Below, piece by piece: positions 17,134 through 23,864 of a stretch of 64,000 nt of DNA (positions are counted from its first letter, which is position 1; each line of letters begins with the position of its first letter). The stretch comes from Haladaptatus salinisoli (GTDB taxonomy: Archaea > Halobacteriota > Halobacteria > Halobacteriales > Haladaptataceae), in the NCBI RefSeq assembly GCF_020614375.1, contig NZ_CP085328.1:310001-374000 (forward strand), written 5' to 3'. The position numbers and the translations under genes were made by a program. The notes under the pieces are model-generated. The model saw only the letters and a program-made list of their open reading frames with translations. It did not search any database and had not been told where the DNA came from.

Positions 17134-17518
17134 TCAAGACGCATACGTTCCAAGCGTCAACTGCTGAGTTTCAGCATCGGCTTGGCTGTCTTGTGGCGCG
17201 GTCAAACGCGCCCCATCCTCAGCCGAGTCAGTGTCGTTCGGGTGTTCTCTGGAACGACTCTCTCCACTAAGGTAGCGGTCTGCGATGTTTATCGCCCCGT
17301 TCACGTCCGCTTGGTACTCGCCCATCCAACAGTCGTCGGTGACCGAAAGCCCACCATCGTACTCGAGATATCCTGCGTCTTTGAGTCGATTGACCGCCAG
17401 TCGCACCGTCTCGTATGGAGTATGGAGGTGGTGTGCGAGACGGCGAATCGAGTCGCCGCTCTCGACCCCGAGGATGACTGTGCACCAGTGTCGTCTAGTA
17501 CCTCGTACATCTGGCAGT
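17134..17518 (-). pseudogene. Winged-helix fragment joined in frame to TnpB tail
   Basis: One minus-strand frame reads RRHWCTVILGVESGDSIRRL, LAHHLHTPYETVRLAVNRLK and DAGYLEYDGGLSVTDD, a winged-helix N-terminus of a kind found in haloarchaea. It then switches to DCWMGEYQADVNGAINIADR and DSQADAETQQLTLGTYAS, the C-terminus of IS1341-type TnpB. The TnpB part keeps the last zinc-finger Cys and the ADVN catalytic Asp but lacks the RuvC core. The join is in frame, so a chimeric protein is conceivable, but no start codon upstream is convincing. It is most simply a deletion scar. Confidence 0.6.
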
Positions 17519-17618
17519 TACCAAATATCCGGGAATGGTTGAGGGTCTTACTAGAAAAGTGATATCGTCGTCAAATTGAATCGCAGTTCTAATGCCCAGC
17601 TATGTCTTCGAATAGTAC

Positions 17619-17944
17619 TATTTTGAAATCAACTGCTATCTTCGAATAGGGTTCTATTCTGAAATCGCATTCTATTTAACCAATCCCTCTTTTTCGTGCT
17701 ATTCTCTGCCTGCTCTCACCACTTGCGATATTCTGATGGCTTTTACGATTCTTCCTATTTATGCTATCTAAACTCCTTATGCTATTTGCGCGACTTACAC
17801 TATGGAGACTATTCACTCTATTTCCACGATGGATAGCAACTACTGTGGTTGGGCTATTTATGCTATTCGTGCTATTTTAGGTATTTATGCCATTTATAAA
17901 TCCGGCAGAAAGTACGCTATTCGGACGATTTTGCTTATTCACTT
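17619..17944 (-). repeat. Upstream 9-bp iteron array of the par locus
   Basis: TATT cores recur at exact multiples of nine bases. Phase one has positions 17619, 17637, 17655, 17673 and 17700; phase two runs from 17729 to 17936 (including 17756, 17783, 17810, 17819, 17855, 17864, 17873, 17882, 17918 and 17936). Typical units are TATTTATGC and TATTCGTGC. On the minus strand the core is AATA(G), matching the downstream array. There is no gene here. It is a candidate centromere and operator for the ParA system. Confidence 0.75.
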
Positions 17945-17980
17945 CCCGTAGGTATAAGTCACGAGAGGATTCCATTTCAG

Positions 17981-18039
17981 AATAGCATGGCTGAATCGAA
18001 CAGTAGGAATAGCACAGATAGGATAAATAGTTCAAATAG
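17981..18039 (+). repeat. Iterons continuing into the parA coding start
   Basis: AATAG-type cores at 17981, 18008, 18017 (GATAG), 18026 and 18035 keep the 9-bp phase across the parA ATG. They encode the Ser/Asn-rich leader of ParA, so the same bases appear to serve as coding sequence and binding site. The orientation is inverted relative to the upstream array. Confidence 0.7.
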
Positions 18040-18925
18040 CCCGTACGAATCTATCGATACGAGTGGGACGTCACGAGCCGTCTCAGTCTGTATGCTGAAG
18101 GGTGGCGTCGGGAAGTCGACCATCGCGGTGAACCTCGCGCGTCAGCTGGCTACCCACGATCACGATGTCCTCCTCATCGATCTCGACCCGAATGGACACG
18201 CCTCGGTCGGTCTTGGGTTCGATGACCACTATCACGACACGGATGAGAGTATCGGCGATGTCTTCTTCGACGATGCGGATCCTGTGTCAGTCATCTACGA
18301 TACCGACCACGAATTCGATATCCTTCCTTCGAGCGAAAATCTCGAGCAGGTTGAGCGAGAAATCGTCGTGGGCGATATCTTCCAACCCTCTGCACTGTTA
18401 CAGCGTGAGGTCGTCGACCCACTGCTTGGTGACAAGTACGACTATATCGTTACTGACTCGCCTGCCTATCGCTCGCGATTGACCGACAACGCACTCGTCG
18501 CGACATCCAATCTCGTTCTTCCACTTGCACCTGGAAACGAGGCTATGTCTGGGCTGGAACGCACCATCGAGCGTCAGATTGCCCCGCTGCGTAAACACAT
18601 GGACGTTGACGTCCTTGCGCTCGTCCCGAATATGCTGAACGGTCGTATCGACCAGCAGACGCAGGATCGGCAGCTGCTCGAACGATTGAACTCCCACGCC
18701 AGCCTACAAGACCGCATTCCGAACTTTGCGCGAATCACGGACTGGGAGGCCGTTGACGCGGGCGACAGTAAGCCCACACCTGGTATCCGCGACCGAACCA
18801 GTATCACGAAAGCATACGGCGAACGACAACCGCTGTTGGACTACGACCCCGAGTGTGACCAACTGACCTGTTTCGACGAACTTGCGCATATTGTTGAGGC
18901 TGGCGAGGTGATTCGCAATGAGTGA
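17987..18925 (+). CDS. parA: ParA-type partition ATPase
   Basis: 312 residues. The deviant Walker A CMLKGGVGKSTIAVNLARQL (signature Lys 38) and VLLIDLDPNGHASVGLGFDD are diagnostic of ParA/Soj, as is the Walker B region YDYIVTDSPAYRSRLT. The first 30 residues are a polar Ser/Asn-rich leader, probably disordered and encoded by iteron DNA. ParA polymerises or gradients on the nucleoid to segregate replicons. It overlaps the next gene by eight bases, and together they lie between iteron arrays. The promoter must sit inside the upstream array, suggesting autoregulation by the complex. Confidence 0.9.
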   Translation: MAESNSRNSTDRINSSNSPYESIDTSGTSRAVSVCMLKGGVGKSTIAVNLARQLATHDHDVLLIDLDPNGHASVGLGFDDHYHDTDESIGDVFFDDADPVSVIYDTDHEFDILPSSENLEQVEREIVVGDIFQPSALLQREVVDPLLGDKYDYIVTDSPAYRSRLTDNALVATSNLVLPLAPGNEAMSGLERTIERQIAPLRKHMDVDVLALVPNMLNGRIDQQTQDRQLLERLNSHASLQDRIPNFARITDWEAVDAGDSKPTPGIRDRTSITKAYGERQPLLDYDPECDQLTCFDELAHIVEAGEVIRNE

Positions 18926-19337
18926 CGATGACCCATTTGCCGATCTTGGTGAGACCCTGGATGGCACAAATGAGCAAGACGATTCTGTGTCATCACAGGA
19001 AATGGCTGAGACGACTACCGGTTCAACATCCGGGCAGAGCGTAACTCAGGATGAGGACAACGACGAAGACCGAGACCCAATGGAGGATACTGCCTTTTCC
19101 TATGAGGCAGCTAGCCAGCGGCCGTTCTACGCTCGTGATGAAACGATCGAGACTTTCGACTCCTGGTTGAACTATGAACTAGAGCGTGAACTCAGTATCC
19201 GCGGCTATCAGAATATCGTTGTTCGTGAGATGACGGACGCCTTGCTACGCACGGTTGTTGAGGAAGACTTGGTTGATGAAGTAGCCGAACGATTTGAGCA
19301 GGCCCGATACGATGCTATTCCTGAATCGGGTGAATAG
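18918..19337 (+). CDS. Probable ParA partner, iteron-binding protein
   Basis: 139 residues. The first 70 are very acidic and Ser/Thr-rich, likely disordered, a region that could contact ParA. The C-terminal 65 (SQRPFYARDETIETFDSWLN, ELERELSIRGYQNIVVREMT, ALLRTVVEEDLVDEVAERFE) are predicted helical and could form a small DNA-binding dimer; no ParB/Spo0J domain is present. It is translated in overlap with parA. Position and size match the centromere-binding adaptors of ParB-less plasmid systems. The DNA-binding role is inferred, not seen. Confidence 0.6.
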   Translation: MSDDDPFADLGETLDGTNEQDDSVSSQEMAETTTGSTSGQSVTQDEDNDEDRDPMEDTAFSYEAASQRPFYARDETIETFDSWLNYELERELSIRGYQNIVVREMTDALLRTVVEEDLVDEVAERFEQARYDAIPESGE

Positions 19338-19411
19338 CCTACTATTTTTTCAGTGCGAGAATAAGGGTTTCTAAGTCGGATTATTGGATCTAACGAAGTT
19401 GTGAAAGGACG

Positions 19412-19489
19412 AATAGTGCGAATATTTTAAATAGCTTGAATAGGATAACTCGTTTGAATAGCTTGAATAGTATGAATAGAATGAATAGG
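19412..19489 (+). repeat. Downstream 9-bp iteron array of the par locus
   Basis: Nine units with AATA(G/T) cores at 19412, 19421, 19430, 19439, 19457, 19466, 19475 and 19484, and one degenerate unit at 19448. The consensus is TGAATAGNN with exact 9-bp spacing. It lies 74 bp after the partner gene, inverted relative to the upstream array. Confidence 0.8.
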
Positions 19490-19505
19490 ACTCCCTTAAA
19501 CTGCC

Positions 19506-22710: not shown

Positions 22711-23462
22711 ACTGATGGTAGGAGATGCAGAGTCAAGTGAATTCCGTGGTTGCGACGGCTCACGCACAGTACCAACGCCTGCAGGGTACAATGAGAAGTT
22801 CTACGCCCATTCGGTGCGCTCTCTGTCCGACATACGGCCGGTGTAGTACACCGTACGCAGGTATGCCTCGGGATGAGGAAATCCACTTGCGCGGCGTCGA
22901 AGCTGGTCAACCCCAATCCGGTTCGTTCTTCATCCGATATCATATCATGGATTCCCATCTGTTGCAACGATTTGCGATTGTAAGTGCACTCGTCGAAGTA
23001 CCTCGACGGTTCACTATCGTTGTCCCCATACTTCGACGGTCATCACACAGGCGCTTCTACCGACGACTGTGACAATTTGATACGGAAGCTTTCTTGCAGT
23101 TCTGGCACACAGTACAGCCTTGTTTAGCGGTTGGAGAGGGGACGGTGGTGCGGGAAATGGTTCTGAGGACACCGTCAGTATACGCCAGTCCCTTAGGGAA
23201 CGAAATTCTAATTAGAATCTACTTGATGCCGGTAAGTTAGCCGATGAGGGTTTCAACAGGACAAAAGGACATCAGAACCCAAAGTTAGGACATTATACTA
23301 ACCATCAGCGCCTTTGTCACTCAGCACTCTATCGCGAATTGGATACCCATCTAGCAAAAAGCAGTATTTATATTCTCATTGACGGTGTTCCACTCGAAAT
23401 ACGTCGCACAGACGTCTGACTGACTTACTTGTGACTTGGACGTGAGTCACTACCGAGAGACG
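22711..23462. other. Intergenic region between RLI-like and RHH genes
   Basis: About 750 bp without a convincing gene. It carries a short IS6-like end remnant near 23250 (AGGGTTTCAACAG) and palindromic operator copy D at 23284. A few short minus-strand frames look like decayed protein but match nothing I recognise. Confidence 0.5.
23284..23302. promoter_or_regulatory. Palindromic operator, copy D (degenerate)
   Basis: GTTAGGACATTATACTAAC: the right half is identical to copies A and C, the left half keeps only GTTAG. It is followed by CATCAGCG, as copy C is by ATCAGCG. It lies 160 bp before the RHH gene. Confidence 0.45.
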
Positions 23463-23864
23463 ATGACTCAACAGGGGCAATCCCGGAAAAACGTCACTGT
23501 CCGGCTCGCAGAAGAGAAAGTTGACGAGTTGGATAACGAGGCCAGTGATCACGGAGTGAGTCGCGCTGAGTACATTCGAAATCTCATTGAGTCGCGTCAT
23601 GAACCGGATGAAGTTGACGCTGAACTCGACCGACTGCAAGATGAAATCACCCGACTTCAAAATGAGTTAGACGAATCTACTACCGAGTTAGAGCGAGTTC
23701 GCCGTGAAAAACGCCAGATCCTTGAACAGCGTGAGGAGAATCAGCAGCTCACTCGGTATGTTGAACGTGAAAAATCCCTTCAAGAGCGGCGATTAGAGCG
23801 GCAAGATGCTCCCGCGTGGCAACGCGCAAAGTGGTGGTTATTAGGACGGGATGACGGATCATGA
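23463..23864 (+). CDS. Ribbon-helix-helix protein with coiled coil
   Basis: 133 residues from ATG 23463. An N-terminal CopG-type RHH (QSRKNVTVRLAEEKVDELDN, GVSRAEYIRNLIESR) binds DNA as a dimer. Residues 55-105 form a long charged coiled coil (LDRLQDEITRLQNELDESTT). The C-terminus ends in a Trp-rich amphipathic helix (APAWQRAKWWLLGRDDG). Such proteins are common on haloarchaeal plasmids and are probably regulators or partition adaptors; the exact role is unknown. Confidence 0.8.
   Translation: MTQQGQSRKNVTVRLAEEKVDELDNEASDHGVSRAEYIRNLIESRHEPDEVDAELDRLQDEITRLQNELDESTTELERVRREKRQILEQREENQQLTRYVEREKSLQERRLERQDAPAWQRAKWWLLGRDDGS

Follow-up and report, generated by a model that had tools for sequence, protein, structure and literature searches.

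Phased 9-bp repeats around a haloarchaeal parA operon and its relatives: a candidate plasmid partition cassette with repeats inside the coding sequence

A haloarchaeal parA operon surrounded by short phased repeats, some of which lie within the parA gene itself, raises the question which function these repeats serve and which protein reads them. The operon is located in a stretch of 64,000 nucleotides (the window), which is part of the 487-kb contig C2 of a 5.04-Mb haloarchaeal assembly; its features are compiled in Table 1. The deviant Walker A motif occupies residues 38-44 of ParA, and the protein lacks an N-terminal HTH domain, as all its Pfam matches (E up to 0.1) belonged to P-loop NTPase families. 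The partner gene overlaps parA by 8 nt. An orc1/cdc6 gene is found about 3 kb from the array. Just upstream of the arrays, positions 17134-17406 of the minus strand contain an open frame which presumably resembles the end of a transposase-associated OrfB. Furthermore, a ribbon-helix-helix (RHH)/NikA-like protein, the C-terminus of which is long, charged and helical-looking, is encoded at 23436-23864 on the plus strand (Pfam NikA-like 5.4e-6, slightly under the cut-off).

Table 1. Features of the parA locus (positions are those of the window)
Feature	Position	Strand	Description	Further support
Upstream array, register A	17618..17703	-	4 exact AATAG cores and 1 with one mismatch	
Upstream array, register B	17728..17939	-	2 bp off register A; 8 exact cores and 8 with one mismatch	
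TATA-like element TATAAG	17953..17958	+	-34 from the ATG, between upstream array and start-codon array	
Start-codon array	17981..18043	+	ATG inside a 4-nt spacer; Asn-Ser encoded by the cores as AAT AGN	
parA	17987..18925	+	312 aa, Walker A KGGVGKS	Pfam AAA_31 4.1e-29; Soj/ParA chains of the PDB matched by a profile of relatives
Partner gene	18918..19337	+	139 aa; probable centromere-binding protein	Family partner beside 130/136 parA loci
F-x-D-L motif, partner residues 7-10	18936..18947	+	Conserved, N-terminal; overlaps predicted short helix 8-14 (model)	
Partner C-terminal domain	19101..19322	+	Extended segment (residues 65-73) followed by three helices	Mean pLDDT of 87.6 in the domain model
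Downstream array	19412..19492	+	7 exact AATAG cores, single register	

An earlier note on this DNA had described AATAG cores at 9-bp steps upstream of the operon in minus orientation, over the first codons of parA and downstream of the partner gene. Registers and shuffles agreed with this description: in none of the three blocks did any of 500 dinucleotide shuffles reach the observed autocorrelation at period 9, for which z was 4.2 in the upstream block, 3.6 around the parA start and 7.6 in the downstream block. The arrays had also been called strictly phased, which holds for the parA start and the downstream block with one register each, but not for the upstream block, where two registers lie 2 bp apart. 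Exact CTATT words at 17618, 17654, 17672 and 17699 make up one of them, eight exact CTATT words between 17755 and 17917 the other. Around the start codon, exact or one-mismatch units were found at 17981, 17999, 18008, 18017, 18026 and 18035 in the same register, the unit at 17990 being degenerate. Ten units can be counted from 19403 in the downstream array, seven of them exact and one further with 1 mismatch; the AATAG at 19333, within which the partner gene has its stop codon, is out of register with this array. The consensus, taken over the 35 units whose core has no more than one mismatch, was AATAG followed by four loose positions. The pattern AATAG-N4-AATAG-N4-AATAG, with up to 2 mismatches allowed, was matched 17 times in the 64 kb, always within 17746-19488 (0.04 expected). 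Throughout the 5.04-Mb genome, AATAG-N4-AATAG occurred 14 times, eight times in this locus and six times at mutually separate sites, and the reversed pattern used as control occurred 4 times. The phased 9-bp AATAG repeats around parA were confirmed.

The array inside parA was compared among 32 loci of the window clade. Relative to the ATG, the AATAG cores kept one frame in all 32 loci (typically -6, +12, +21, +39 and +48); all cores were in register in 30 of them, the near-identical loci L031 and L038 each having one extra off-register core. These two are cassette copies on a single 129-kb contig (C2 of G295). Related loci are not independent events, and the 32 leaders comprise 28 distinct sequences. 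Asn-Ser pairs were spelled AATAG in 96/97 cases in the leader and in 0/66 cases in the ParA body of these loci; this difference demonstrates that selection at the DNA level writes the leader. Asn codons were AAT in 108/109 cases in the leader and in 138/392 in the body. The earlier claim that the array enters parA in frame and dictates a Ser/Asn leader was borne out by the single frame and the AATAG spelling. The leaders of L034 and L036 were shorter by three codons, which equals one repeat unit.

Use of the ATG within the array is supported by a TATA-like element at -34 to -31, which was present at 30/32 window-clade loci and in 0/288 background windows with a pattern set after viewing the sequences; an earlier pattern, set blind to the sequences, was found at 13/32 loci. 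A counterpoint is the alternative in-frame start within codons 2-29 that exists in 16/32 loci of the clade and from one of which pNRC100 was annotated; the window parA has no alternative in-frame start before codon 36. On pNRC100 (L218 6001-6067), the ParA start is annotated at a GTG, codon 23, located 66 nt downstream of the conserved array ATG, and this annotation may drop the leader of the protein. A leader 12 codons shorter, considered for L035, was rejected, as an ATG located 27 nt further upstream is indicated by the TATA-like element of this locus.

Relatives of the window ParA (E≤1e-30) were present in 221/391 genomes of the class. The relatives of the locus include pNRC100 of Halobacterium salinarum; in the viral contigs searched with the window ParA, relatives were not found. 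A set of 136 parA loci was composed of seven loci of the own genome, the 29 best loci of the class search and 100 fetched stretches. The partner profile search, which assigned a family partner to most of them (Table 1), left six loci without one, namely the distant own paralogues L003-L007 and L137 (L005 and L137 are the same locus). Since this profile had been built from downstream frames of 119 of the same 136 loci, independent support comes from 11/11 held-out clade loci and from 22/23 haloarchaeal loci of a second collection (L138-L160), which matched. The partner gene nearly always overlaps the parA stop: its start was at -4 relative to that stop in 64 of the 130 loci, at -8 in 37, at -1 in 26 and elsewhere in 3, starts near -4 having been chosen where several fitted. 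A profile of the partner C-terminal domain was matched in 150/292 genomes of the class. Of 196 genomes of the phylum (the share from outside the class is not given), 12 matched the partner profile, all of them in the order of the window genome. The arrangement on this replicon had been described as looking like a distinct system; it is not peculiar to the replicon but recurs beside many haloarchaeal parA genes, and it does so with differing cores.

Naive phasing tests mislead because codons have a period of 3. The raw period-9 z-score was dropped, as it exceeded 3 in 65/136 ParA bodies. A pair count against distances 1 and 2 bp to either side was passed by 117/130 loci, but also widely by controls (90/130 coding, 62/128 far downstream and 42/87 far upstream segments), and was replaced. 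In the strict test, identical 5-mers in the non-coding flanks were counted at multiples of 9 bp and at other multiples of 3, and a locus passed when the first count was more than twice the second and at least 6. Over the 130 loci, identical 5-mers at 9, 18, 27 and 36 bp totaled 3522 as compared to 577.5 at other multiples of 3. Phased 9-bp arrays were found by this test beside 113/130 haloarchaeal parA genes, with a core that differs by clade, and in 8/130 ParA-plus-partner bodies, 12/128 far downstream and 9/87 far upstream segments used as controls. The 17 failures included 7/13 loci of the group with the core ATTAT and 2/32 of the window group. Furthermore, the upstream z-score at period 9 was higher by more than 2 than each of those at periods 6, 12 and 15 in 91/133 loci; among controls, this was so in 2/136 ParA bodies, in 3/117 far upstream and in 2/134 far downstream segments, one far upstream median not being computable owing to a segment without variance.

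Grouping of the partners at 60% identity resulted in 24 groups. The core was AATAG in the window group (32 loci), AATAG with GGT in a group of 20 loci and in further groups, ATTAT in 13 loci, ACATT in 6 and TAGCT in 5. Small groups had CTACT (2 loci), CTAAG (2) and GATTC/TTCGT (2, including L002, the second parA of the contig that contains the window), and some single-locus groups had no clear core. These assignments were made with a weaker phasing test; the cores of the eight largest groups reappeared under the strict count.

Co-variation of the core with the proteins was analyzed with 52 dereplicated loci passing the strict test. Core similarity correlated with the identity of partner residues 66-73 (Mantel r 0.57; partial r 0.48 given residues 74-132), and the P-value of 0.0005 is the minimum possible with 1999 permutations. 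Among 321 variable partner and ParA positions, scored with control for the remainder of the partner and for ParA, the best predictors of the core were partner residues 67, 72, 69 and 103, followed by ParA 241 and 192, which co-vary less strongly. The same four residues led with 4-mers, and partner 65, 100, 67 and 72 led with 6-mers. When the window clade was left out (47 loci), partner 67, 65, 103 and 72 were on top, ahead of ParA 178 in fifth and partner 69 in sixth place. In an earlier run with 55 loci of the weaker test, partner 69, 72 and 67 had come first of 352 positions and ParA 241, 192 and 195 next; with 6-mers, ParA 74 had been second. The co-variation found with these loci held on the strict set. 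As to whether cassettes residing in one genome avoid sharing a core, 12 pairs of loci could be compared within genomes, 9 of which had a cosine of core similarity <0.3; the mean was 0.19 vs 0.23 between genomes. These pairs include the near-identical duplicate L031/L038, and genome G381 has two AATAG loci. For the own loci L001, L002 and L005, the pairwise cosines were 0.01, 0.24 and 0.0.

The partner had been described as acidic with a helical C-terminus, on which alignment and structure models agree. In an alignment of 39 members, M1, F60, Y71, E104 and A108 were invariant and F7, D9, L10, L92, R103 and R130 nearly so. The F-x-D-L motif was located within the first 18 residues of 123/130 partners; wherever this could be done, start codons had been picked so that the motif was included. 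The tail that follows is flexible, with pLDDT <50 for residues 17-29 and 31-41; its median length is 60 aa, 33% of which are Asp and Glu. An arginine finger is not conserved in this tail, as 30/130 tails have no Arg and 12/130 neither Lys nor Arg. The monomer model showed an extended segment followed by helices and no strand. The alternation of the co-varying residues 65, 67 and 69 resembles that along one face of a beta-strand, and residue 103 starts helix 2 in the model. In place of the earlier reading of a ParB-less ParA with a small adaptor, the small partner itself is better regarded as the likely centromere-binding protein, in view of the co-variation between its sequence and the array core.

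The window partner had no match in Pfam at E up to 0.1, RHH families included, and the family as a whole had no convincing match among Pfam, NCBIfam and PDB sequences. Some acidic tails matched single unrelated families (best 0.00017 for one member). A profile of the 39 partners gave nothing below E 0.095 against PDB chains, and matches in PHROGs were weak and mostly to unnamed families (best 0.00022). Foldseek returned no PDB match for the whole partner model and, for the domain, nothing under an E-value of 2, and profile comparison with the RHH_1 proteins of the same genome, for which the alignment was poor, found nothing. Because Pfam, NCBIfam, PDB, PHROGs and Foldseek yielded no convincing match, we only infer a ribbon-helix-helix fold for the C-terminal domain, which is nevertheless the fold that we favor. 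In RHH partition proteins, residues of the strand read the DNA major groove. Their strand is followed by two helices and forms a pair with the strand of another molecule (PMC5016525, excerpt).

Taken as a whole, the locus is likely to be a ParA plasmid partition cassette working like type Ib systems, with the partner as centromere-binding protein and the arrays as centromere and operator. The partner would bind the 9-bp repeats via the extended segment before its first helix, which probably forms the beta-ribbon of an RHH-like dimer, and dimers aligned along the phased arrays would constitute the partition complex. Its disordered acidic tails, with the FxDL helix at the tip, would contact nucleoid-bound ParA-ATP, and sister replicons would be moved apart. 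The complex would also repress the operon, as is to be expected because the arrays flank the TATA-like element and cover the start codon. The proposal of the earlier note that centromere, operator and coding sequence overlap appears plausible at the level of sequence. Points counting against partition are the lack of a significant Foldseek match, the lack of a conserved tail arginine and the 17/130 unphased loci.

The arrays could also be an autoregulatory operator only, by which the partner represses parA while segregation depends on another site or is absent. Their position around the TATA-like element and the start codon agrees with this. However, a further in-phase AATAG pair follows the partner gene in 27/32 window-clade loci as compared to 2/128 control segments, and an upstream repeat region exceeding 300 bp is long for an operator. 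In 4 of the 32 loci, a pair within 27 bp was found there out of phase. The period test of the downstream 300 nt was strong (z9>5) in only 9/136 loci, the window included. An operator role is also compatible with a centromere because type Ib centromere-binding proteins are described as repressors, too (PMC5016525, excerpt). We regard an operator alone as unlikely.

Replication iterons of Orc1/Cdc6 or a Rep protein, standing beside parA by chance, would be in keeping with the orc1/cdc6 gene near the window array and with those on the three annotated plasmids inspected, where the distance to parA is 0.9 to 2.7 kb. Yet, orc1, the gene searched for, was found in the fetched flank of only 15/130 loci and within about 2 kb in only 13/86 loci with full flanks, and 59 of the 73 others were phased in the strict test. 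Iterons appear very unlikely also in view of the co-variation of the core with the extended segment of the partner, and the origin recognition boxes of haloarchaea have been described as G-string-containing repeats (PMC3528665, excerpt). ParA or a host protein might instead read the repeats, with the partner serving only as a regulator of the ATPase. This is highly improbable: the co-variation of ParA 241 and 192 and the second rank of ParA 74 in the earlier run speak for it, but on the strict set partner residues ranked first with 4-, 5- and 6-mers, and a shared host reader would leave the unlike cores of L001, L002 and L005 in one genome unexplained.

As a partition cassette, the locus resembles type Ib systems (pSM19035 delta/omega, TP228 ParF/ParG, pCXC100 ParA/ParB) in its ParA without N-terminal HTH and its small downstream partner with a disordered tail. 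It differs from them in that the haloarchaeal partner has no detectable sequence relation to PDB chains and its tail no conserved Arg, and in that the window array also enters parA and stands after the operon. The direct repeats of pCXC100 are reportedly 9 bp long. The site of this plasmid is described as consisting of direct repeats only (PMC5016525, excerpt). A repeat site upstream of the operon is likewise common to the window and to type Ib systems, where the partner may also act as repressor (PMC5016525, PMC9499535, excerpts). The unit of pSM19035 is 7 bp, unlike the 9 bp found here, and four or more contiguous repeats are required there for efficient ParA activation (PMC9499535, excerpt).

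Among archaeal systems, SegAB of the Sulfolobales is similar in comprising an archaeal ParA homologue, an overlapping downstream DNA-binding partner (DNA binding being what we infer for the partner here) and upstream sites (PMC5120986, PMC12284271, excerpts). The SegB sites, however, are described as a 13-bp palindrome, TCTAGASTCTAGA, found dispersed along the chromosome (PMC12284271, excerpt), unlike the 9-bp direct repeats at the operon. Palindromic 13-bp sites of the TCTAGASTCTAGA type did not occur among the phased cores, which are 9-bp direct repeats (AATAG, ATTAT, ACATT, TAGCT, CTACT). There are hints that the partner is not closely related to SegB, as the PDB profile search gave nothing better than the E-value stated above; SegB itself was compared by description. 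The pNOB8 system is, like the window cassette, an archaeal plasmid partition system, but presumably differs from it in having three proteins and another centromere binder. It is named as AspA-ParB-ParA in PMC5120986 (excerpt).

A ParA with a small DNA-binding partner and a repeat centromere is already known as a kind of system. New, as judged from sequence, would be the unnamed partner family, the fixed 9-bp step with diversifying cores and the putative centromere inside a coding sequence. The chances are about even that Haloarchaea share one partition architecture, in which a fixed 9-bp step is combined with a word that diversifies together with a short partner segment and provides the numerous replicons within a cell with mutually compatible segregation addresses, and in which the centromere of one clade has grown into parA, making a single piece of DNA serve as centromere, promoter start and coding sequence. 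A 2016 review counted the characteristics of archaeal chromosome and plasmid centromeres among the outstanding questions (PMC5120986, excerpt). In the titles and beginnings of abstracts among the matches listed from open-licence literature, nothing on a haloarchaeal centromere or on 9-bp arrays at parA was found. The locus and its relatives, including pNRC100, offer a concrete candidate centromere, a candidate for the protein that binds it and a segment predicted to determine specificity, all accessible to testing in standard laboratory haloarchaea. If true, this would be a striking example of a DNA-level signal dictating the first residues of a protein.

Two further ParA types of the own genome were also accompanied by repeats. 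In a second ParA clade (L005/L137/L231, own contig C5:161580, and L232-L240), the own locus has a different partner of about 205 aa. Upstream arrays phased at 9 bp were found in 5/10 close relatives with the strict and in 7/10 with the weaker test, and the core of the own locus is ATTAG/AGAAA. The own ParA paralogue L007 (contig C7:326574) is flanked by 13-bp phased repeats (AATAACTATAGTC), and different ParA families may therefore use different steps.
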